Origin: Desulfobulbaceae bacterium
GTDB taxonomy: Bacteria; Desulfobacterota; Desulfobulbia; Desulfobulbales; Desulfocapsaceae
DNA length: 50,506 nt
Assembly: GCA_004796425.1 (NCBI GenBank)
Contig: QZLB01000077.1
Coordinates: 1 to 50,506 of the forward strand
Direction: 5' to 3'
Shown here: positions 5,814 to 37,459 of the stretch, piece by piece
How the letters are laid out: the number at the start of each line of letters is the position of its first letter
How positions within the stretch are numbered: the stretch's first letter is position 1
Position numbers and translations under genes: made by a program
The notes under the pieces: generated by a model
Seen by the model: only the letters and a program-made list of their open reading frames with translations
Database searches by the model: none
Told to the model about the DNA's origin: nothing

Positions 5814-6626
5814 TTAGAGCAACTCTTCAAGCTTTGCCGATAGTTTGTTGAGATGTTCCTGCTCTTCATTTGCCATTTCCTGATAAAATGTCGCGACATC
5901 AGTTCCCGCATGTTTGCGAGCAAGCCTTGAATAGAGATCAAACGCCTGGGCTTCGAATTTCATACCGAGCTGAATGGCTTTTTCGGGTGTGCCGAGCTGA
6001 TCTTTGAAAACTGAGATCATTTCGTCAATATCGAAACCACCTTCAAGGATGTTCAGTTCGTTTTCACCGGGTACCGCAGGGTTGGAATCTTTGTATTTAC
6101 TCAACAATTTTGCCATATGACCATCTTCGAAGCGGGCCATCTGGGTTAACGTCTCTTTTTCATTAGGGTTGTCGGTCTGCTCGACCAAGGCGAGGTAAAA
6201 TTGTTTCAGTCCCGCTTCCATCTGATAGGCGAGTTCAAAACTTGTTTCAAAATCACCACTGGCAAAATATTCGATACCCATTGCCTCAGAGCCGACCGAC
6301 TCGCCACCGTCCCAGTCGATTAAGCCACCATTCATGTTGAACACATGCCGTACCCCTGCATTATTGAGGATTTGACAGGCAGCCTTGGATCGAACACCGC
6401 TTCGACAATAGACGATAGTCGGCTTATCGTGGTCTACTTCGGATTGGCGTAAGGATAGTTCGGGAAGCGGGATTAATATTGCCCCGGGGATGTGAGATTC
6501 TTCATATTCTTTCGGTTGCCGGACATCAATCAATTGGTATCGCTCCGCCTCCCCGGATGACATGAATTGTTTCGCTTCAGCGCTCGTTATGCTCTCCCCG
6601 GTATCAAAAAAGGTATCCCAGTTCAT
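5814..6626 (-). CDS. Rhodanese - rubrerythrin-like ferritin fusion
   Basis: A 270-residue protein. Residues 1-108 are a rhodanese domain with LIDVRQPKEYEESHIPGA and the active loop C74RSGVRS, a canonical six-residue loop. Residues 115-270 form a ferritin-like four-helix bundle: E137 in helix 1, E167-x-x-H170 in helix 2, E225 in helix 3 and E255-x-x-H258 in helix 4, the di-iron ligand pattern of rubrerythrins. The rubredoxin domain of true rubrerythrins is absent. The domain pair suggests persulfide transfer coupled to peroxide or O2 reduction at a di-iron site; this is inference. It lies 44 bases before the rhodanese-MBL gene and 38 bases after an unknown gene, in one operon with the flavodiiron gene. 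Confidence 0.88.
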   Translation of the reverse strand: MNWDTFFDTGESITSAEAKQFMSSGEAERYQLIDVRQPKEYEESHIPGAILIPLPELSLRQSEVDHDKPTIVYCRSGVRSKAACQILNNAGVRHVFNMNGGLIDWDGGESVGSEAMGIEYFASGDFETSFELAYQMEAGLKQFYLALVEQTDNPNEKETLTQMARFEDGHMAKLLSKYKDSNPAVPGENELNILEGGFDIDEMISVFKDQLGTPEKAIQLGMKFEAQAFDLYSRLARKHAGTDVATFYQEMANEEQEHLNKLSAKLEELL

Positions 6627-6664
6627 ATCTGTTTTTACATTTAAATTAGCGGTTCAATTCTGGT

Positions 6665-7147
6665 TTACATATGTAAAAGCGCGGCTTCACGCGGTGTTGT
6701 CGAATAGCATTTCAACTGAAAGAGCCAGTATCGTTCGGGCTTGTCCGTGATAGACTTTTCGGTCGGTCCAAGAAGCCAGTGACTATCGTCTATCAAATTA
6801 TAGAATGCGGTGTCAATGCCGATAAAACCATCGAGGAAATGAGCAATGATATGTAACAGCTTTGATTGATATCCCTGAGAGATGACAGAAAATTTATCAC
6901 AACGCTCAAAGCCCGACTCACCGAGTTCCTTTACCAGGCCATCAAGTACATTTCTGTTTTTTTTGACGCCTTTATTGAGTTGCATTGAAAAATCCGGATC
7001 TGTGCCATTTACAATACTTTTATCGTCCAGGTCAATCTGGTCATAGCGAACCAGTGAGGTCTTGGCAAAGAACTGCAAAACCTGTGTCCTGCAGTCCTCC
7101 TTGTTTTCACCTTCCGCCAATATCAGATGTTCGGCCATAAGTTCCAT
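6665..7147 (-). CDS. Conserved-looking hypothetical protein in the flavodiiron operon
   Basis: A soluble 160-residue protein from ATG 7147; an in-frame GTG at 7171 would add eight residues and lies closer to the upstream stop. I do not recognise a named domain. The sequence opens MELMAEHLILAEGENK and has a helical middle with HIIAHFLDGFIGIDTAFYNL, followed by SHW, and an aromatic segment YWLFQLKCY near the end. The histidine-rich amphipathic stretch could be a metal or cofactor pocket but this is only a suggestion. It sits 44 bases (20 from the GTG) after the flavodiiron gene and 38 bases before the rhodanese-ferritin fusion on the same strand, so co-transcription is very likely. Its presence between two redox enzymes makes it the obvious unknown partner of this operon. 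Confidence 0.75.
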   Translation of the reverse strand: MELMAEHLILAEGENKEDCRTQVLQFFAKTSLVRYDQIDLDDKSIVNGTDPDFSMQLNKGVKKNRNVLDGLVKELGESGFERCDKFSVISQGYQSKLLHIIAHFLDGFIGIDTAFYNLIDDSHWLLGPTEKSITDKPERYWLFQLKCYSTTPREAALLHM

Positions 7148-23385: not shown

Positions 23386-24291
23386 TCAACCATGCAGTTT
23401 GTTGGGGCTCATCAAATGTTCTTCCATATGTCTGAGCTCATCAATTCCTGAAACGACAATGTTCGGATCAACGGTAAGATCTTTCGCCGGTAGTTTATCG
23501 TCATAGTCCATACTGCTCAGTACGTGCTTGATGCAGTTGAGTCGCGCCAGTTTCTTGTTGTCCGAACGGATAATGGTCCAAGGAGACAGGGTTCGGTTGG
23601 TTTCCTGGAGCATCTGGAATTTTCTGAGAGAATAAAGATCCCAGTATTTCTGGGCGAGATTATCAACCGGCGACAGCTTGTACTGTTTCAAAATATCCTT
23701 TTTGCGAGAATCAAATCGCTTCTTCTGCTCATCTTTTGATACGGAAAAGTAGAATTTGAAGAGTTTGATCCCATCTTTAACGAGCAGTTCCTCGAGCATC
23801 GGAACATCTTTGAGGAACCGTTTGTTTTGCTCATCGGTACAGAATCCCATCACCGGCTCGACCATGGCGCGGTTATACCAACTTCGATCAAAAAATACCA
23901 TTTCACCTGCCGAGGGCAGTTGAGAAATGTATCGTTGAAAGTACCACTGCGTCGATTCCGTTTCATTCGGTTTGACCAGCGCAACGACTCGAGTGTTCCT
24001 GGGATTAAGATGGGCAATAAAACGTTTGATGGTCCCACCCTTGCCGGCTGCGTCTCGTCCTTCAAATATGAGCAGTACTCTGGTGCCGTCGGCTTTCATG
24101 GATTTCTGCAACTTCATGAGCTCGACCTGTAATTTTCTCAACTCAATTTCGTATGCCAGGTGCCAGTTTTTAATCCAGATTGGCGAACGGTCATTGGATT
24201 CTTCAGCGTCAATATTCTTCAGCGCTGTCAATTCCGTCAATTTGATCTTATCTTTTTTGATGTCCCCTGAGTTTGGCTTTTTTGATGGCAT
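23386..24291 (-). CDS. ppk2: Polyphosphate kinase 2 (first copy)
   Basis: A 301-residue single-domain class-I PPK2. Walker A reads FEGRDAAGKGG (residues 79-89), the lid region carries R-rich NPRNTRVVALVKPNE, Walker B is VFFDRSWYNRA (about residues 132-142), then FYFSVSKDEQKKRF. This is the pattern of enzymes that use polyphosphate to phosphorylate nucleoside diphosphates or, reversed, make polyphosphate. A 50-residue charged N-terminal extension precedes the core. ATG 24291 has GGAG well placed. It is the last of four minus-strand genes with a second PPK2 160 bases upstream. Confidence 0.94.
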   Translation of the reverse strand: MPSKKPNSGDIKKDKIKLTELTALKNIDAEESNDRSPIWIKNWHLAYEIELRKLQVELMKLQKSMKADGTRVLLIFEGRDAAGKGGTIKRFIAHLNPRNTRVVALVKPNETESTQWYFQRYISQLPSAGEMVFFDRSWYNRAMVEPVMGFCTDEQNKRFLKDVPMLEELLVKDGIKLFKFYFSVSKDEQKKRFDSRKKDILKQYKLSPVDNLAQKYWDLYSLRKFQMLQETNRTLSPWTIIRSDNKKLARLNCIKHVLSSMDYDDKLPAKDLTVDPNIVVSGIDELRHMEEHLMSPNKLHG

Positions 24292-24450: not shown

Positions 24451-25407
24451 CTACAACAATGGCGTGCCATATACCTGTTCCTGAGTTCGCATGATTTTCA
24501 GCTCTCGATGTCCTGGAATAACCACTTTGGAATTCCTTTTGAAGTTGAGACTCCGGCTTCTCCCGACATACTTTACCGAGGATAGAATAAGTTTCATTGT
24601 TTCTTTGCGAGCCTGGTGTTTGTCATCGGATCTGATAACCCACCAGGGTGATTTTCTGGTATGGGTCCGCTGGAGAAGGATCTTTTTCTTCTCGGTGAAT
24701 TCATCCCATAATTCCTGAGCCTGCAAGTCAACCTCGCTCAGTTTCCACTGCCGGAGCGGGTCATTTCTTCGCCGTTCAAAACGCCGCGCCTGTTCTTCTT
24801 TGGACACGGAAAAATAAAGTTTAAGCAGAATGGTTCGGCCAGCATCGAGGATGAAATTTTCTTCGTAACTGGTCACTTTTCTGAGAAATCTGTGGTATTG
24901 CTCTTTGGAGCAGAACCCCATCACTGGTTCCACCATCGCACGATTATACCAACTCCGATCAAAGAGAACGACTTCCCCGGCATGGGGAAATTGTTCAATG
25001 TACCGTTTCATATGCAGCTCGGTTTTTTGGATTTCGTTTGGTTTTCCCAGTGCGACAACCCGGTAGCGCTTTTCGTTCATGTACCGGGTGACACGCCTGA
25101 TGGTCCCCCCCTTACCTGAGGCATCACGACCATCAAAAAGGATGATCATTTTTTTACCGTGCCGCTCGAGGTGGTTCTGCATTTTTATCAGCTCGGCCTG
25201 GTATGGTTTGAGTTCCTCCTGGTTGTAATATTTCAGGAGGGCGGCATTGGTAATCTGCTCTTTCTCCCTTTGGTCGAGCCGACGTGAAATTTCTTTGATA
25301 TGTTCAGCGGGGGCTTTTTTTACCGCCCCCGATTCATGAGCCTTTACAACGTCTCTGATCAGCGATGTAATGCCCGCCTCGTCTTGAATTAATTTCGTTT
25401 TTCTCAT
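24451..25407 (-). CDS. ppk2: Polyphosphate kinase 2 (second copy)
   Basis: A 318-residue class-I PPK2 paralogue of the downstream gene. Walker A is FDGRDASGKGG, Walker B is LFDRSWYNRA, and WYFQ of the first copy is ELHMKRYIEQFPHAGE here. The C-terminal tail (SRSLNFKRNSKVVIPG) is more basic, while the N-terminal 60 residues are helical and differ fully from the other copy, so the two are old duplicates rather than recent ones. It follows the phosphoesterase gene by 49 bases. Which copy favours ADP, GDP or AMP cannot be read from motifs alone. Confidence 0.94.
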   Translation of the reverse strand: MRKTKLIQDEAGITSLIRDVVKAHESGAVKKAPAEHIKEISRRLDQREKEQITNAALLKYYNQEELKPYQAELIKMQNHLERHGKKMIILFDGRDASGKGGTIRRVTRYMNEKRYRVVALGKPNEIQKTELHMKRYIEQFPHAGEVVLFDRSWYNRAMVEPVMGFCSKEQYHRFLRKVTSYEENFILDAGRTILLKLYFSVSKEEQARRFERRRNDPLRQWKLSEVDLQAQELWDEFTEKKKILLQRTHTRKSPWWVIRSDDKHQARKETMKLILSSVKYVGRSRSLNFKRNSKVVIPGHRELKIMRTQEQVYGTPLL

Positions 25408-25456: not shown

Positions 25457-26194
25457 CTAATTGAGTTTGCGTCCTGTGCGGTACATCGTGCTATATATTG
25501 AAGGAAAACGCAATGTTTCAAGTTTGTTAATGAGTCGTTCCAGATCATACGCTACCCGAAAATGACAGACTTTTATTTGATCCCGGCTGATCTGGATGGT
25601 GGCGCAGCTGGCTGCGGGATTTCCATCGAACATCCTGCCCACACTGCCTGGGTTGATAAAATGAACACCGTCGATGAATTTATAGTAGGGGGTATGTGAG
25701 TGTCCGGTAATGATGATCTGGTGAGGTGATGCTTTAGCAAGTGTTCGAAATCGTGCGACCGGGCCATCTCTGAATAGAAACTCATCTGGATCATCGGGGC
25801 TGCCGTGGTACAAGCCAAGTGAGAGGGGAGCCAGGAGTTGCTGACCGTAATTTTCCAGCTGAAGGTGCCGGTATAACGGCTGGTTCAGTAACCAGTTGCG
25901 GTTTTTTGAGCTGAGTTCTGCCGATGTCCAGCCATACATGATTCTCTTTTCTGGTTTTCGCGGTTTTTTAAAGGTTCTGCCATGCAGGAGCTCTATTATG
26001 TGACGGTCGGTATTTCCCAAAATGGAAAGTGCCTGGTTGTCTTGCAACCAATCGATGGTTTCGTTGGGGAATGGACCATAAACGGTTGAATCTCCCCCAT
26101 TGAGAATCAGGTCAAAGTGCTCCTCAAACGAGTTGATGATTGACTCTAGAGCAGGGAAATTTGCGTGAATATCTGAGATAACGAGAACATTCAT
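25457..26194 (-). CDS. Calcineurin-like metallophosphoesterase (YfcE/MJ0936-like)
   Basis: A 245-residue phosphoesterase. The five metal-binding blocks are present: ISDIHAN (DxH), LILNGGDSTVYGP (GDxxxYG), ILGNTDR (GNxD/H), YHGSP and ITGHSHTPY (GHTH type), ending with INPGSVG. It probably hydrolyses small phosphodi- or monoesters in the cytoplasm; the true substrate is unknown. It lies 11 bases after the cardiolipin-synthase gene and before the PPK2 pair, all on the same strand, so a phosphorus-related operon is plausible. Confidence 0.9.
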   Translation of the reverse strand: MNVLVISDIHANFPALESIINSFEEHFDLILNGGDSTVYGPFPNETIDWLQDNQALSILGNTDRHIIELLHGRTFKKPRKPEKRIMYGWTSAELSSKNRNWLLNQPLYRHLQLENYGQQLLAPLSLGLYHGSPDDPDEFLFRDGPVARFRTLAKASPHQIIITGHSHTPYYKFIDGVHFINPGSVGRMFDGNPAASCATIQISRDQIKVCHFRVAYDLERLINKLETLRFPSIYSTMYRTGRKLN

Positions 26195-27932: not shown

Positions 27933-29117
27933 ATGAATATAAAAGGATTTTCTCTATCGGCAATCGCTGCAGGGATTAAGTATCAGGATCGGCTGGATGT
28001 CGGTTTGATCTATAGCGATGTACCGGTAGTGACGGCCGGAGTTTTTACCACCAACCAGGTAAAGGCGGCCCCGGTTTTGCTTGATATGGAGCGGCTGAAA
28101 CAGGGAAGAGCCCAAGCGGTGCTGGTGAATAGTGGTAACGCCAATGCCTGCACCGGACCAGAAGGTATGGAAACAGCACTTGGTACCAGCAAAATGGTCG
28201 CTGAAGCACTCGATATTCCTGAAGAAATGGTACAGGTCTCTTCAACCGGAGTAATCGGTGAACCACTTGATCTTCAACCCTTTCGTGATGGAATGAATGA
28301 ATTGGTCGGGGGGCTTTCTGTTGACCGATTTGAAGATGTTGCGCAATCGATTATGACGACCGACACGGTACCCAAAACAGTTTACCGAAAAATCAGTGTC
28401 GGCGGAGAGGAAGTTAAAATTATGGCCATGGCCAAAGGATCAGGCATGATTATGCCCAATATGGCTACCATGCTGTCCTTCATTCTAACCGATGCACGGA
28501 TCAGTTTTACCGAATTGAATAACGCCTTAAAGTCAGGAGTTGAACAGACCTTTAATCGGATTACCGTGGATGGCGACACCTCGACCAATGATATGGTACT
28601 GATCATGGCAAATGGCAGCGCGGAAAACCCCTGGATCGATGAGGCACACCAGCAGGAATACCAGGAGTTTCAAAATGGCTTGGAAGGGGTGTTAAAAGAA
28701 TTGGCGCTGATGATCGTTGCGGACGGGGAGGGTGCTACCAAATGTGTAACAATTCGAGTCTGCGGTGCAAAAGAGGACCGTGAGGCAGAGCGTATGGCTC
28801 GAACAGTGGCCAACTCGAATCTGGTTAAAACTGCCTTTGCTGGTGAAGATGCCAATTGGGGCAGAATCATTGCAGCCATGGGGCGTTCAGGGGTTAAATT
28901 TAATCCGGATCGTGTGGATATAGCGTTCGGCGATGTGGTAATGGTTCAGAATGGTCAGGGAATGGGGCCGGAAGTAGAAAAGGCGGCAACCCTTATCTTG
29001 CAGGAGGATACGTTTGCCGTTTGCATCGATCTCAAAGATGGAACAGGATGCGAAGAGGTTCATACCTGCGACTTTTCTGTTGATTATGTGAAAATTAATG
29101 CCGATTACAGGTCTTAA
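27933..29117 (+). CDS. argJ: Bifunctional glutamate N-acetyltransferase / ornithine acetyltransferase
   Basis: A 394-residue ArgJ. The autocleavage site with the catalytic Thr lies in PNMATMLSFILTDA near residue 182, and the beta-subunit begins there. TTDTVPKTVYRKI, VDGDTSTNDMV and AFAGEDANWGRIIAAMGRSGV are family signatures. It transfers acetyl from N-acetylornithine to glutamate and may also use acetyl-CoA. AGGA precedes ATG 27933. The next gene begins one base after its stop, and an upstream in-frame ATG of that gene lies inside argJ. Confidence 0.96.
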   Translation: MNIKGFSLSAIAAGIKYQDRLDVGLIYSDVPVVTAGVFTTNQVKAAPVLLDMERLKQGRAQAVLVNSGNANACTGPEGMETALGTSKMVAEALDIPEEMVQVSSTGVIGEPLDLQPFRDGMNELVGGLSVDRFEDVAQSIMTTDTVPKTVYRKISVGGEEVKIMAMAKGSGMIMPNMATMLSFILTDARISFTELNNALKSGVEQTFNRITVDGDTSTNDMVLIMANGSAENPWIDEAHQQEYQEFQNGLEGVLKELALMIVADGEGATKCVTIRVCGAKEDREAERMARTVANSNLVKTAFAGEDANWGRIIAAMGRSGVKFNPDRVDIAFGDVVMVQNGQGMGPEVEKAATLILQEDTFAVCIDLKDGTGCEEVHTCDFSVDYVKINADYRS

Positions 29118-29118
29118 G

Positions 29119-30654
29119 ATGAAACAGCCAAGAACCGAATCATTTACAACCGAGGATGGAGCCCAGATTCCACTCCTGCTGGAAAATTTGAGTAAGACTT
29201 ACTCGGTTTTGGAAGAGACTTCCAGAAACAGGAAAACCAGGCTTTTTGATACCTTCGACTGGAGGCTCTATCGAAAAAATCTGATTTGTTCAATTTCAAG
29301 TTCGCGTTTTGTAATCCGGGATTTTGCTGGGAACGAAATCATGCAGTGTCGTGCACCGCGCAAAAGCAGAATTTTCTGGTCAGATATTGATGATCAAAAA
29401 ACATCAGAATTACTAAAAAAGTATTTGAGTATGCGCGCACTTCTGCCGCTGATTTCCATAGAGGGAGTGGAGCATAGTTTTAAAATCGTCAACCAGGATC
29501 GTAAAACCGTATTGCGTTTGCAGATCGAGAAATATCAGGCCCTGGAAGGTGATACCTCAATGGAAATGCCGGTGATTATTTCTATTCAAGAATTACGCGG
29601 TTATGAAAAACCATTTGACCAGGTGCAAAAAATCCTGGTGCGCGATCTTCCACAACTCGGTCAATATGGTTCCTATATTGAGCAGGCATTTGGTATCGCA
29701 AGGAGGGAGCCACTCGATTATGGCGCTAAGTTTCAGGTGAACCTGGAAAAAGAGGCGACCATAGGTGAATCGGTATCGGTTTTATGTCAGGCACTGGTGG
29801 AGTCGATGGCCGTAAACCAACCCGGCGTGGAACGTGACATCGATTCAGAATTTCTTCATGATTACCGGATTGGTATACGACGAACCCGTTCGCTACTGTC
29901 ATTGTTGAGGAAAAAATTACCAACCCGCATCAGCTATTTTGAAGATGAGTTCAAATGGCTTGGCTCCATCACCGGACCATTGCGTGACATTGATGTGTAC
30001 CTGCTCAAAGAGGATTCCTACAAGTCGCTGGTGCCTGAAATGTTTGAGCCAGGGTTACAGAGTTTTTTTGACGATCTTGCAAGCGGTCGACAACAGGTGC
30101 TACGAACATTGAGAACGGAATTGAACTCTGAGCGGTATGAACGACTGTTGACCGACTGGCAGTTTTTTATCGAGGATCACGACTCTGAACTCTTTGGCTG
30201 CAAGGCACACTGCAAATCAACAATCGATAAAATCATCTTGAAGCGATTCAACAGTTTTGTGAAAAGGGGGAGCGGTATTACAGAAGAGAGCCCTGATGAT
30301 GCGTTACACACACTGAGGATTCGTGGCAAGAAATTCAGGTACCTGCTGGAGTTTTTCCGCTCCTACTATGCACCGCAGGATATTGATAACTTCTTAAAGC
30401 ATATGAAAAAACTGCAGGATAATCTGGGTGACTTCAACGACCTGTCCGTGCAGATAGAAATGCTGCAAGCCAAACTCGATGGTTTACATGGCAGGAATAA
30501 GAAAACGCTCAGCCTGGCTGCAGCGCTCGGCAGCCTGATTACCCGCTTGCAAACGGAACACCAAAAAGAGCGAGCGCGATTTAACCGAATCTTTGAAAAA
30601 TTTAATACTGAATCGAATAGGCAATTAATTTTAGAAATGATTTCAAATGATTAG
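29119..30654 (+). CDS. CHAD domain protein with CYTH-like N-terminus
   Basis: A 511-residue protein. The N-terminal 190 residues are a beta-rich region resembling a CYTH tunnel fold without an obvious ExExK motif. Residues from about 220 to the end are a CHAD domain: two helical repeats with HDYRIGIRRTRSLLSLL and HTLRIRGKKFRYLLEFF, the basic histidine/arginine/lysine face that binds polyphosphate in the family. I start at ATG 29119 (a longer frame from 29098 lies in argJ). CHAD proteins elsewhere bind polyphosphate granules. Two ppk2 genes lie about 4 kb away and a ParA-like ATPase follows after 28 bases, so a polyphosphate role is a reasonable inference. Confidence 0.9.
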   Translation: MKQPRTESFTTEDGAQIPLLLENLSKTYSVLEETSRNRKTRLFDTFDWRLYRKNLICSISSSRFVIRDFAGNEIMQCRAPRKSRIFWSDIDDQKTSELLKKYLSMRALLPLISIEGVEHSFKIVNQDRKTVLRLQIEKYQALEGDTSMEMPVIISIQELRGYEKPFDQVQKILVRDLPQLGQYGSYIEQAFGIARREPLDYGAKFQVNLEKEATIGESVSVLCQALVESMAVNQPGVERDIDSEFLHDYRIGIRRTRSLLSLLRKKLPTRISYFEDEFKWLGSITGPLRDIDVYLLKEDSYKSLVPEMFEPGLQSFFDDLASGRQQVLRTLRTELNSERYERLLTDWQFFIEDHDSELFGCKAHCKSTIDKIILKRFNSFVKRGSGITEESPDDALHTLRIRGKKFRYLLEFFRSYYAPQDIDNFLKHMKKLQDNLGDFNDLSVQIEMLQAKLDGLHGRNKKTLSLAAALGSLITRLQTEHQKERARFNRIFEKFNTESNRQLILEMISND

Positions 30655-30682
30655 TTGTTTTTTTTCACAGAATTGAGTCATT

Positions 30683-31429
30683 ATGAAAACAATAGCCGTC
30701 TACAGCAGTAAAGGTGGTGTTGGAAAAACCGCAACTGCGGTAAATTTGTCCTATGCCGCTCTTGAGCAGAATAAGCGAATTTTGCTGTGTGATATGGATT
30801 CCCAGGGAGCCGCCTCTTATTATTATCGCATCAAACCAAAGAAGAAGTTCAATCGAACTAAATTGCTCAAGGGGGATTTTCTCCAGTTCATCAGGGAAAC
30901 TGATTATCCCGGTCTGGACTTGCTCCCGGCCCATTTCTCTTTTAGAAATCTGGATTTGGCTCTTACCAGTGAGATCGATCAGCCTGACCGGACCGCGTTA
31001 CGGAAATTGTTATACGTGCTGGAGGACGAGTACGATTATGTGTTTCTGGATTGTCCACCCAATCTTACGCTGCTATCGGAGAACATCATTGTCGCAGCCG
31101 ACTGTGTGGTGACACCGGTGGTTCCAACAACGCTCTCAGTACTGGCTCTGGAACAGTTGCTCAAACTTTTTAGAAAAGTTGCCTGCGACAAGAAAAAGCT
31201 GCTGGCGTTTTTTTCCATGGTCGAGAAAAGGAAGTCGATGCATGCCGGAGTGATGAAGAAATACCTTAAATACCCCATATTCCTCCGCCAGAGTGTCCCG
31301 TTCATGGCCGATATTGAAAAGATGGGGTTGTATCGTAAACCGGTGGCGGCAGGGCCGACTCGATCGGTAGCTCCCCAGGTGTATCGAGCACTCTGGCAGG
31401 AAATAATGGAGAGGAGACTAAAGGGATGA
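30683..31429 (+). CDS. ParA/MinD-family ATPase without a ParB partner
   Basis: A 248-residue ParA-type ATPase. The deviant Walker A with signature lysine is SSKGGVGKTATA (residues 8-19), motif A' is LLCDMDSQGAAS and Walker B YVFLDCPPNLTLL. No DNA-binding N-terminal domain is present, so it is the short form like Soj or the McdA cargo-positioning family. No parB or centromere-like repeats are near, so plasmid-type partition is unlikely. It lies between the CHAD gene (28-base gap) and sixA (four-base overlap), so a role in placing a cargo linked to CHAD, such as polyphosphate granules, is proposed. This is inference. Confidence 0.92.
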   Translation: MKTIAVYSSKGGVGKTATAVNLSYAALEQNKRILLCDMDSQGAASYYYRIKPKKKFNRTKLLKGDFLQFIRETDYPGLDLLPAHFSFRNLDLALTSEIDQPDRTALRKLLYVLEDEYDYVFLDCPPNLTLLSENIIVAADCVVTPVVPTTLSVLALEQLLKLFRKVACDKKKLLAFFSMVEKRKSMHAGVMKKYLKYPIFLRQSVPFMADIEKMGLYRKPVAAGPTRSVAPQVYRALWQEIMERRLKG

Positions 31430-31935
31430 AGCAGTTGTATCTCGTCAGACATGCAAAATCAAGTTGGTCGGAGCCAAGCCTTGCCGATTTTGACCGCCCA
31501 TTGAATAAGCGCGGTAAGCGGAACGCTCCTTTCATGGGAAAACGTTTGCGGGATAAAGAGATCTGCCCCGATCTGCTGATTTCAAGCGGAGCCAAGCGGG
31601 CTCGAAAGACAGCTGGTATTATTGCCCGGGAGATTGGTTATCCCAAAGACAAAATCGTAATAACCAATGCTCTCTATACCGCCGACATGATGGATCTCCT
31701 GGAGATTGTCAGGGAGATGGATAAACAGTTTGACAATGTGATGCTTGTCGGGCACAACTATGTGATCACCGAATTTGCAGAATGGCTCACGGGAACACTA
31801 TTGGGAAACATCCCGACCAGCGGGATCGCCTGCATCCAGTTTGATCATCCCTGGAAGAAGGTTTCCGAATCCTCCGGTTCACTTCTCTTTTTTGATTATC
31901 CCAAGCTGCATGAGGATGGGAGCAAAAGGGAATGA
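31426..31935 (+). CDS. sixA: SixA-type histidine phosphatase
   Basis: A 169-residue small histidine phosphatase. The RHG signature reads LVRHAKSSW with H9 as the phosphorylated residue, the second conserved block is SSGAKRARKTA, and the second histidine lies in VGHNYVITEF. SixA in E. coli dephosphorylates phosphohistidine on HPt or PTS proteins. The start overlaps the ParA stop (ATGA). Its stop overlaps the next start, giving strong translational coupling across three genes. Substrate here is unknown. Confidence 0.92.
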   Translation: MKQLYLVRHAKSSWSEPSLADFDRPLNKRGKRNAPFMGKRLRDKEICPDLLISSGAKRARKTAGIIAREIGYPKDKIVITNALYTADMMDLLEIVREMDKQFDNVMLVGHNYVITEFAEWLTGTLLGNIPTSGIACIQFDHPWKKVSESSGSLLFFDYPKLHEDGSKRE

Positions 31936-33143
31936 GCTCAGGCTCAGAAAAGCCGGGTACCGCCTACCTCCCATTTCGAGAAGTATTACCCGGGCTGTTA
32001 TTCCTCACCTTTATTTTCTGGCTCAACTTCACCTCCCGGGCAATTATTTCACCGTTGCTTCCCTATATAGAGTCTGATCTCGGGATTACCTACGGCCAGT
32101 CCGGGTCGCTCTTTCTTTTTGTATCCTCTGGGTATTTTCTGTCAATTCTCGGTTCAAGTCTGGTTTCTTCCCGAATTACACATAGCTGGGCGATCGCACT
32201 GTCAACCGTTATCACCGGTCTGATCCTCTGTTTTGCACCGCTCTGTTCAAGCATTTCCCAGTTGAGAATCTGCTTGTTCTGCCTGGGGCTTGGTGCGGGG
32301 ATTTATCTTCCTTCAGGTCTTGCAACCATTGTGCATCTTGTAGCTCCCGAGTATCGGGCGCGGGGGATGTCAATCCATGAACTTGCCCCTAATCTAGGCT
32401 TCGTAATGGCGCCGCTCATTACCGTCTTTTTAATCCAATGGTTTGACTGGCAGCAGTCTCTGCTGGTTCTCGGAGGTTTCCTGATGGTTGGTGGTGTGGT
32501 TTTTGGGGTTGTACACTCGGCCCAAAAAACCTATAGTGTCGTGCCTGATATTCGAGCGCGTTGGAAGGTGTTGAAAATTGGCAAGTTTTGGTTAATGGTT
32601 CTGCTTTTCTCTGTGGCAATCTGTTCAACACTCGGCTTATATTCACTGCTCCCGTTGTATTTGCATAAAGACCGGGGGCTTGAACTTGAACTGGCCAATA
32701 ATTTGGTGGCAATATCACGGCTCAGTTCTGTCGTGATGCCGCTGATCGGAGGCTGGCTGGGAGATCGGTTTGGTAATGAACGAATGACGACGCTGGTACT
32801 GCTCGCTGGTGGAGTTTTTGCCATTTTGATTGGACTGACCAGCGGCTATGTGCTTTATGGCGTGATCGTTATTCAGTCAATGATCGCAGTATGTTTCTTT
32901 CCATCCGCGTTTGCAGTTCTGACCGGTATCGGGGGAGAGCGATTGGGTGGCATTGCTATTACGTTATGTATTCCCATCGCATTTTTGACCGGAGGAGGAT
33001 TGATACCGACCATCATGGGGATGATTGGTGACTACTACACTCTGGCGCATGGGTTTGTTTTCGCTGGTGTTTTAGTATGTTTTGGCGGGTTTGCCTGTCT
33101 GGCATTCCAGCTGAGTGCAACCAGAGCTCGGGCAGGAGTATAA
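31932..33143 (+). CDS. MFS transporter
   Basis: A 403-residue major facilitator superfamily permease with 12 predicted hydrophobic segments. The first-half signatures include SPLLPYIESDLGI (helix 1-2) and GLGAGIYLPSGLATIV. The loop after helix 8 carries GGWLGDRFGNER, the repeat of the MFS motif A. It is an inner-membrane protein; the substrate cannot be read. It overlaps sixA by four bases, so it belongs to the same transcript as the CHAD-ParA-SixA set. The reason for that link is unclear. Confidence 0.92.
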   Translation: MSSGSEKPGTAYLPFREVLPGLLFLTFIFWLNFTSRAIISPLLPYIESDLGITYGQSGSLFLFVSSGYFLSILGSSLVSSRITHSWAIALSTVITGLILCFAPLCSSISQLRICLFCLGLGAGIYLPSGLATIVHLVAPEYRARGMSIHELAPNLGFVMAPLITVFLIQWFDWQQSLLVLGGFLMVGGVVFGVVHSAQKTYSVVPDIRARWKVLKIGKFWLMVLLFSVAICSTLGLYSLLPLYLHKDRGLELELANNLVAISRLSSVVMPLIGGWLGDRFGNERMTTLVLLAGGVFAILIGLTSGYVLYGVIVIQSMIAVCFFPSAFAVLTGIGGERLGGIAITLCIPIAFLTGGGLIPTIMGMIGDYYTLAHGFVFAGVLVCFGGFACLAFQLSATRARAGV

Positions 33144-35659: not shown

Positions 35660-37459
35660 GTGAGAATGAGATTACCGTACTTTCAGATATTACTACAGCT
35701 CATTTGTACCGTTGTCCTGGTTGAAGGGGTATCCGGTACCTGTCTTGAGGGAGATTGCCGTAATGGTTATGGCACCTACCGGGGAGTGGATGGACGGCTC
35801 TACACTGGTGAATTCTCCAAAGGAGCGGTCAGCGGTGCAGGGACCTTGGAACACCCGGACGGTACGATATACAAGGGGCAGTTCAAACTCGGTAAGTATC
35901 ACGGCAAAGGGATTCTGAAGAGCCCAGACGGCAGGAATTATGAAGGAGAGTTTTACAACGGTGTAATTCAGGGGAACGGTACACTGACACTTAAGAGCGG
36001 CTTGCAGTATCGTGGTGAATTTAACCTCGGCCAGTTCCACGGTCGCGGGGTTCTCTTCTTTCCGGACGGCAGAGAATATACCGGAGATTTCAGAGGCAAT
36101 ATGATTGATGGAGTCGGCCGGCTGGTATATCCGGATGGAAGTTGGTATGAGGGAGTTTTCCGGAGTGGTAAACCCGCCGGACGCGGGGTGCGATCGTACC
36201 CGGATGGCTCAGTATATACCGGTGAGATCAGAAATACCCAAAAACATGGAAATGGTATTTTAAAGCTCACCTCAGGCGAGGAGTATGAGGGTACGTTCGC
36301 CAACGATCAATATTCGGGAGTGGGTACACTCCGTTATGCTGATGGTCGAAAATACCAGGGAGAGTTCAAAGAGGGAGTTCGCCACGGCCAGGGAGAGTTG
36401 CACTATGTAGATGGTTCCAGGTATAAGGGTACTTTTGTCAAAGGTGTCGCCGATGGTACAGGGGTCCATGAAAATCCTGACGGGAGTCGATATGAAGGCA
36501 CCTTCCGGGCTGGAAAAAAGGATGGACAGGGTGAGTATCTCTACAAAGATGGAACCCGGTATGTCGGTCAGTTTAAAGATGGAAAACCCCATGGCTCTGG
36601 GACCATGTCTTATCCAGACGGTAAAACGGTGAGCGGTGAATTTGCTCAGGGAGTACTTGTAAAAACCATAGAAGCCAAAGTCGAACCCACTGAAAAACCA
36701 TCAGAAGTGAGCGGCGAGGTTGTAGCTGAGGTGACTCCTGAAAAGGTTCCTGAAAAGATTTCTAAAAAGATGGAGGTCAAGGATGGAGCGGCAGTTGAAG
36801 CGCCTCCAGAAGAAACGTCACCACCTGAAGTGTTAACAGTTGTCGATGGGCGCATCAGGAGTGGTCTCTCAAATGCAGCCCCGAAAACCGGAAAAGTGGA
36901 TTTTACCTATCCTGATAAAACAAGATATCAGGGCGAAGTCGTAGATGGCCTGATGGAGGGCGACGGAGCCATCTTCTTTCCCAATGGTGACCAGTACCGA
37001 GGGACATTCAGCGCGGGCGTTTTTGAAGGTGAAGGAACGTATCGTTATAACGATGGTCGTATTTATCGCGGTGGTTTTGGCAATGGTAAGCGCAGTGGTA
37101 CGGGAGAATTTGTTTATCCTGACGGGACCAGATATACCGGAGCGTTCAAAAATGATTACTTTCATGGAACGGGTGAATACATATTCTCAGATGGCAGCAA
37201 GTACACCGGAATCTTTAAAGCAGGCAGCTTTAACGGTAAAGGGAAATTAGTCTATCCTGATGGTACCGTGTATCATGGTATTTTTAAAGATGATCTGCCC
37301 AATGGACTTGGCGAACTAAGCAGTCCAGATGGCAGTGTATATAAAGGAGAGTTTTCTGAGGGGCGAAGAAATGGCAAGGGAGTGCTGAGGATGGCCGATG
37401 GTACCGTGTACCAGGGGGTATTCGTGAATGATACGTATATCGGTACGAATCAGAACTGA
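35660..37459 (+). CDS. Secreted MORN-repeat protein
   Basis: A 599-residue protein with a signal peptide (residues 1-26), then 12 full 23-residue MORN repeats (residues 47-322: YxGxFxxGxxxGxGxxxxPDGx), one decayed repeat, a Pro/Glu/Lys-rich linker (about residues 335-410) and seven more full repeats plus a partial one (422-599). It is likely periplasmic or surface located. MORN repeats form extended beta-hairpin ladders that often bind lipids or proteins. GTG 35660 starts it; ATG 35666 is possible. AGAGG lies upstream. It follows avtA by 27 bases and precedes a DUF4177 gene by 40. Its role is unknown. Confidence 0.9.
   Translation: MRMRLPYFQILLQLICTVVLVEGVSGTCLEGDCRNGYGTYRGVDGRLYTGEFSKGAVSGAGTLEHPDGTIYKGQFKLGKYHGKGILKSPDGRNYEGEFYNGVIQGNGTLTLKSGLQYRGEFNLGQFHGRGVLFFPDGREYTGDFRGNMIDGVGRLVYPDGSWYEGVFRSGKPAGRGVRSYPDGSVYTGEIRNTQKHGNGILKLTSGEEYEGTFANDQYSGVGTLRYADGRKYQGEFKEGVRHGQGELHYVDGSRYKGTFVKGVADGTGVHENPDGSRYEGTFRAGKKDGQGEYLYKDGTRYVGQFKDGKPHGSGTMSYPDGKTVSGEFAQGVLVKTIEAKVEPTEKPSEVSGEVVAEVTPEKVPEKISKKMEVKDGAAVEAPPEETSPPEVLTVVDGRIRSGLSNAAPKTGKVDFTYPDKTRYQGEVVDGLMEGDGAIFFPNGDQYRGTFSAGVFEGEGTYRYNDGRIYRGGFGNGKRSGTGEFVYPDGTRYTGAFKNDYFHGTGEYIFSDGSKYTGIFKAGSFNGKGKLVYPDGTVYHGIFKDDLPNGLGELSSPDGSVYKGEFSEGRRNGKGVLRMADGTVYQGVFVNDTYIGTNQN
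35798..36625 (+). repeat. MORN repeat block 1 (12 x 69 bases)
   Basis: Twelve consecutive in-frame repeats of 69 bases, each coding for a 23-residue MORN unit, with no spacers. They differ at many third positions, so they are old duplications rather than a young tandem array. Confidence 0.9.
36923..37405 (+). repeat. MORN repeat block 2 (7 x 69 bases)
   Basis: Seven more in-frame 69-base repeats after a linker without MORN units, followed by one partial unit that ends the protein. Confidence 0.88.

Follow-up and report, generated by a model that had tools for sequence, protein, structure and literature searches.

Genes for a CHAD protein and a ParA-type ATPase form a conserved pair that is co-inherited in several phyla, and this pairing points to an undescribed ATP-driven system that places or shares out polyphosphate granules. 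Such granules are widespread in bacteria. AlgP, a tether in Pseudomonas aeruginosa, is the only granule-positioning factor tabulated in a 2025 review, which leaves open ATP expenditure on the positioning of polyphosphate granules (PMC13052382). We describe the pair from a 50,506-nt stretch of DNA of a Desulfobulbaceae bacterium (the window; contig C324), within a host assembly of 4.4 Mb in 330 contigs.

A first-pass annotation of the window, which grouped CHAD, ParA and SixA into one system, knew of no described ParA system for polyphosphate, and we likewise found none for polyphosphate granules in the full-text literature searched, which consisted of open-access journal papers. In that literature, adjacency of ParA and CHAD is noted only in Acidithiobacillus, where a folD–ppk–parA–CHAD cluster shows parA beside ppk and CHAD (PMC10892726, PMC6416229), so that the adjacency itself is not wholly new. 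What appears to be new is the breadth of the pairing, its restriction to a single CHAD subfamily, the joint inheritance of the two genes and the interpretation of the pair as a system for polyphosphate.

Gene order and recurrence of the pair

In the window, five genes follow one another on one strand in the order argJ, CHAD, ParA, SixA-like phosphatase and MFS transporter, with polyphosphate kinase genes on the opposite strand across argJ. The features are as follows.

23386–24291, minus strand: PPK2 polyphosphate kinase (PPK2a; PF03976, 1.7e-91; TIGR03707 above cut-off)
24451–25407, minus strand: PPK2 polyphosphate kinase (PPK2b; PF03976, 2.1e-77; TIGR03707 just under cut-off)
25457–26194, minus strand: metallophosphoesterase (PF12850, 2.5e-18)
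27933–29117, plus strand: argJ (PF01960, 1.8e-149), the conserved upstream gene in the window context
29119–30654, plus strand: CHAD protein, 511 aa from the likely start ATG at 29119; the ORF opens at 29098
30683–31429, plus strand: ParA ATPase of the CHAD-linked subfamily, 248 aa (AAA_31, 2e-38)
31426–31935, plus strand: SixA-like histidine phosphatase (PF00300, 8.8e-12), an optional neighbour
31932–33143, plus strand: MFS transporter, which follows in the operon only where the pair lies in the family's argJ context

The CHAD start codon lies immediately past the argJ stop and 28 nt separate CHAD from ParA, while overlaps of 4 nt join ParA to the phosphatase gene (ATGA) and the latter to the MFS gene. 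The first-pass description of three consecutive genes, two of them overlapping, with two PPK2 genes across argJ, is borne out by this layout. Between the PPK2 genes and CHAD lie the metallophosphoesterase, a cardiolipin-synthase-like gene and argJ; as argJ is absent from other CHAD–ParA contexts, we regard it as lying outside the CHAD–ParA module.

Recurrence of the adjacency across genomes, which had been put forward as the check on the original idea, is evident from both sides of the pair. When an alignment of CHAD-linked ParAs was searched against GTDB species genomes and the 80 best loci were taken by ParA similarity alone, CHAD was directly upstream on the same strand in 70; among these linked loci the median gap is 1 nt, and the two genes overlap in 32 of 68 measured pairs. 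Forty-seven of the 70 fall outside records titled Desulfobacterota. Linked pairs occur in Desulfobacterota, Chlorobiota, alpha-, beta- and gammaproteobacteria, Verrucomicrobiota, Kiritimatiellota and several phyla represented only by metagenome-assembled genomes (MAGs). Isolates with the pair include Nitrosomonas, Methylomonas, Methylotuvimicrobium, Ruegeria, Cohaesibacter, Cerasicoccus and Pontiella, and MAGs with the pair, whose labels may be wrong, are assigned to Gemmatimonadota, KSB1, Latescibacterota, Dadabacteria, Chloroflexota and, in one case, Methanophagales.

Ten of the 80 loci are without an adjacent CHAD. In one (L175) the ParA is cut by a contig end, and eight of the nine testable genomes, mostly Methylococcales, hold a CHAD elsewhere; in one MAG carrying a CHAD-type ParA (L211), no CHAD was found in the genome. 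In three Methylococcales loci (L163, L166 and L172; about 6001–6750), the CHAD-type ParA stands apart from CHAD and adjoins glycogen phosphorylase or dtd, and in a Gemmatimonadetes MAG (L164) the CHAD upstream of ParA (before position 6001) is split over three same-strand ORFs, owing to frameshift errors or to gene decay.

From the CHAD side, 41 of the 43 loci with a long CHAD among relatives have ParA directly downstream. Across 297 genomes of the phylum, counting loci outside those already examined, a ParA partner accompanies 10/13 long and 0/18 short CHADs (Fisher p 6e-6), a gammaproteobacterial sample yields a partner for all eight CHADs close to the subfamily as against 4 of 28 others, and in Chlorobiaceae the pair is present in 27 of 30 loci. 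These surveys show that the ParA partner is essentially confined to one CHAD subfamily, in which a degenerate TTM/CYTH domain is combined with a CHAD domain. An exception to the long-CHAD rule is a short CHAD of 313 aa (L294; G462:C17:149500-162500), with no room for a TTM domain, that is followed by a ParA of the CHAD subfamily. For four genomes with a long CHAD (G058, G280, G298 and G303), a CHAD-type ParA was not found.

The host genome itself holds two CHAD–ParA pairs, in the window and on contig C273, in distinct contexts. This repeated occurrence, together with the 41/43 and 70/80 counts, takes the pairing beyond chance. A genome of the window's family, G022, has both genes but apart (L033, C1:215144, and L321, C1:2971427): CHAD has moved off and ParA remains near two PPK2 genes, a split that constitutes a natural test of the need for linkage.

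Trees built from 111 linked pairs indicate that the two genes have travelled together. Patristic distances in the CHAD and ParA trees are correlated (r = 0.87, Mantel p = 0.001), r partly reflecting common descent, and 67 of 108 splits are shared. Among the shared splits are groups uniting Desulfobacterota, Pseudomonadota and Kiritimatiellota, from which it follows that the two genes have moved together; the window and C273 pairs fall in different groups of both trees.

The two proteins and their link to polyphosphate

The ParA protein carries the deviant Walker A motif KGGVGKT with its signature lysine (K10–T16), the DxDxQG motif with the ParA catalytic aspartate and a Walker B-like hhhDCPP, and K10–T16, D37, D39, Q41 and D123 are invariant in 45 relatives. 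Its structure model (pLDDT 93.0) best matches the ParA 8ray and H. pylori Soj (6iub; Z 31.5, r.m.s.d. 2.1, 244 aligned), followed by the HpSoj–DNA–Spo0J complex 8jmj (Z 31.0), McdA 6non (28.8), MinD (26.3) and BcsQ (25.5). Motifs and modelled fold match the nucleoid-binding Soj type. CHAD-linked ParAs are basic (mean pI 9.3), an indirect sign of the non-specific DNA binding expected of the ATP-bound dimer, and have no evident membrane-targeting helix at the C terminus; we predict that they are nucleoid-bound positioning ATPases.

As first annotated, this ParA has no ParB: none is present at the window locus, and the ParB of the genome sits with its own ParA on contig C291. With a profile of the subfamily, CHAD-linked ParAs score 365–388 bits (the window ParA 365) compared with 139 for that chromosomal ParA. 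The possibility that the window protein is a plasmid or chromosomal ParA was rejected, given the separate, distantly related ParA–ParB in the same genome.

The CHAD protein matches PF05235 (1.4e-53) and consists of a degenerate TTM/CYTH fold (residues 1–200) and a CHAD domain (201–511). In its structure model (pLDDT 94.4), the C-terminal half matches CtCHAD (6qv7 and 6qva; Z 35.6 and 35.5) and the N-terminal half has a TTM fold (AtTTM3 3v85, Z 13.3, 172 aligned; Vtc4, Z 11.9). The catalytic ExExK motif is absent from the TTM domain in 48 of 51 relatives, the window protein included. By contrast with unlinked CHADs, in which they are rare, ParA-linked CHADs have R106, K129 and G161–Y162 invariant or nearly so; the unlinked set (n = 46) included L110 and L033, by which linked/unlinked contrasts are slightly understated. 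This enrichment makes the pseudo-enzyme TTM domain our best guess for where ParA docks, although the ParA-linked CHAD L294 apparently does without it, which argues against a universal requirement for the domain. A C-terminal F(R/K)xLF motif was considered as a ParA-binding tail and set aside as too weak, occurring in 18/51 linked and 4/46 unlinked CHADs.

The assignment of the window CHAD to a polyphosphate-binding family, made in the first pass, is strengthened by this domain match and CtCHAD-type fold, as well as by conserved residues. CtCHAD of Chlorobaculum tepidum, which has been crystallised with bound polyphosphate, is reported to bind polyphosphate with KD values of 147 nM and 1.9 µM, and the polyphosphate residues tested by mutation are H253, R256, R260, R296, R418 and Y419 (PMC6537752). 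These align with H247, R250, R254, R289, R407 and Y408 of the window CHAD and are invariant in 51 relatives. The window protein therefore keeps the polyphosphate-binding residues, from which its own polyphosphate binding and granule localization are predicted. CtCHAD (6qva, solved with polyphosphate) also belongs among the ParA-linked CHADs: it matches at 100% over 311 aa the CHAD of a single-contig genome of 2,154,946 bp, taken as C. tepidum TLS, in which the gene lies 2 nt upstream of a CHAD-family ParA, with ppk1 and one other gene upstream. The portions of the CtCHAD literature covered here do not discuss a link to ParA.

Co-occurrence with ppk genes, which the first-pass annotation had also proposed to check, is pronounced. 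Among 77 relatives, PPK1 or PPK2 is present in 43/43 genomes with CHAD and 6/34 without, and outside the window's family in 3/3 CHAD genomes versus 0/26 others (n = 29, p 2.7e-4); both comparisons ignore relatedness, and PPK2 matches with E above 1e-15 were not counted. Genes for PPK1, PPK2, Ppx or TTM proteins lie within five genes of the pair in 30 of the 70 linked loci (41 when SixA is included), and ppk1 adjoins the pair in several differing arrangements. In two Chlorobia loci with a ppk1–CHAD–ParA region (L354:9531-10352 and L356:6478-7584), a repeat protein with SLEGCPxxVxGxFxCSGN motifs is encoded directly upstream of CHAD.

A candidate system for polyphosphate granules

ParA-family ATPases encoded beside a cargo-binding protein, in the absence of ParB, usually position that cargo, as exemplified by McdA and others (PMC10241942). 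With a cargo binder that here binds polyphosphate, granule positioning or partition is the most economical reading, and we consider it probable that CHAD and ParA, as a system of two proteins, position, space out or partition polyphosphate granules. The CHAD domain would bind polyphosphate on the granule surface while the linked ParA would form ATP-bound dimers on the nucleoid; contact between granule-bound CHAD and ParA, with stimulation of the ATPase, would let granules follow ParA gradients, distributing them along the nucleoid and dividing them among daughter cells. Contact could be made through the N-terminal TTM domain, with its lost ExExK and enriched residues. The more specific proposal of a multi-phylum, horizontally exchanged, ATP-driven granule partition in which a dedicated ParA docks on the catalytically dead CHAD-fused TTM domain seems to us evenly balanced.

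The pair might instead set the site and number of granules, or tether polyphosphate enzymes to the nucleoid, and leave finished granules unmoved, with ParA recruiting or assembling components under ATP control, like BcsQ or MinD-type proteins. The presence of polyphosphate enzymes near the pair in many loci fits such a role, as does the change in granule number and spacing caused by the AlgP nucleoid tether alone in P. aeruginosa (PMC9239181), but the ParA is structurally nearer to Soj/ParA and McdA than to BcsQ and retains the full motif set of a cycling ATPase; we regard this alternative as unlikely. Still less probable is a role for CHAD as a polyphosphate sensor through which starvation polyphosphate would tune nucleoid organization or chromosome segregation by way of an extra ParA. 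In other bacteria polyphosphate is connected with exit from the cell cycle, and the genome also has a chromosomal ParA–ParB that a second ParA could influence; against this, CHAD-linked ParA is a distinct subfamily by its profile scores, and its partner is CHAD rather than ParB. That the adjacency is functionless, a product of shared synteny or operon hitch-hiking, is very improbable, for although the argJ context within the window's family is shared vertical synteny, the pair turns up in unrelated contexts and phyla, the trees match, the two genes have been transferred together, and co-presence is kept even where the genes are split, in Methylococcales and G022.

Read as a positioning system, the pair resembles McdAB of carboxysomes, in which a ParA-type ATPase of similar fold is likewise encoded beside a binder of the cargo body with no ParB/parS. 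It differs in its expected cargo, polyphosphate, in a ParA that is nearer to Soj than to McdA, and in its adaptor, a TTM–CHAD protein unrelated to McdB. Partners of ParA/MinD ATPases are said to have in common a basic, disordered N-terminal arm (PMC10241942). No such ATPase-activating arm was found on CHAD, the first 15 residues of which have a mean charge of -0.25 and the model of which is ordered from residue 1; CHAD is thus no conventional McdB or ParB, and may use a folded surface to stimulate ParA. ParABS (Soj–Spo0J) shares the ParA fold and ATPase motifs, whereas the partner here is CHAD and the chromosomal ParA–ParB is a separate locus of the same genome.

AlgP, too, is implicated in keeping polyphosphate granules evenly spaced via the nucleoid (PMC9239181; PMC13052382), but is a histone H1-like tether with no ATPase and involves neither CHAD nor ParA. 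CHAD phosins and CYTH–CHAD proteins (CtCHAD, YgiF and H16_B1017) have the same domain architecture and a polyphosphate-binding CHAD, although YgiF is an active triphosphatase whereas the TTM domain of the ParA-linked subfamily has lost ExExK. In the Acidithiobacillus cluster the ParA and CHAD genes adjoin ppk1, as in several loci here; it is reported in one genus, where parA is assigned to plasmid or chromosome partition and no polyphosphate role is proposed (PMC10892726, PMC6416229).

If the positioning reading is right, polyphosphate joins the list of ParA cargoes and a storage polymer would be segregated much like a plasmid or carboxysome. CHAD–ParA offers a concrete two-gene candidate in cultured C. 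tepidum, N. europaea, Methylotuvimicrobium buryatense and Ruegeria. It also gives two well-studied structures, CtCHAD and NeuTTM, a common functional context. N. europaea carries the genes in the order CHAD–ParA–NeuTTM, the third being NE1496 (2fbl).

Optional neighbours

The first-pass system of CHAD, ParA and SixA survives as a conserved CHAD–ParA unit without SixA as a constant third component, as a SixA gene is found within five genes of the pair in only 21 of the 70 linked loci; SixA was accordingly rejected as a core member. The window protein is a histidine phosphatase, as annotated, but scores 52.4 bits against the NCBIfam SixA model TIGR00249 (cut-off 74.5), and is therefore termed SixA-like only. 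Equally often, the third gene is one for an active TTM/CYTH triphosphatase. ExExK occurs in 18 of the 19 small, free-standing TTM genes next to the pair, a count that is partly built in, the set having been seeded from sequences with the motif.

A metallophosphoesterase gene is found beside PPK2 or CHAD in distant genomes as well (L111, 5285–6007; L155, 6766–8178), and its product is possibly a polyphosphate-related phosphatase. Further along the window (35660–37459), downstream of an aminotransferase gene, lies a gene for a 599-aa protein with at least 11 MORN repeats, which is conserved in this context throughout the family.
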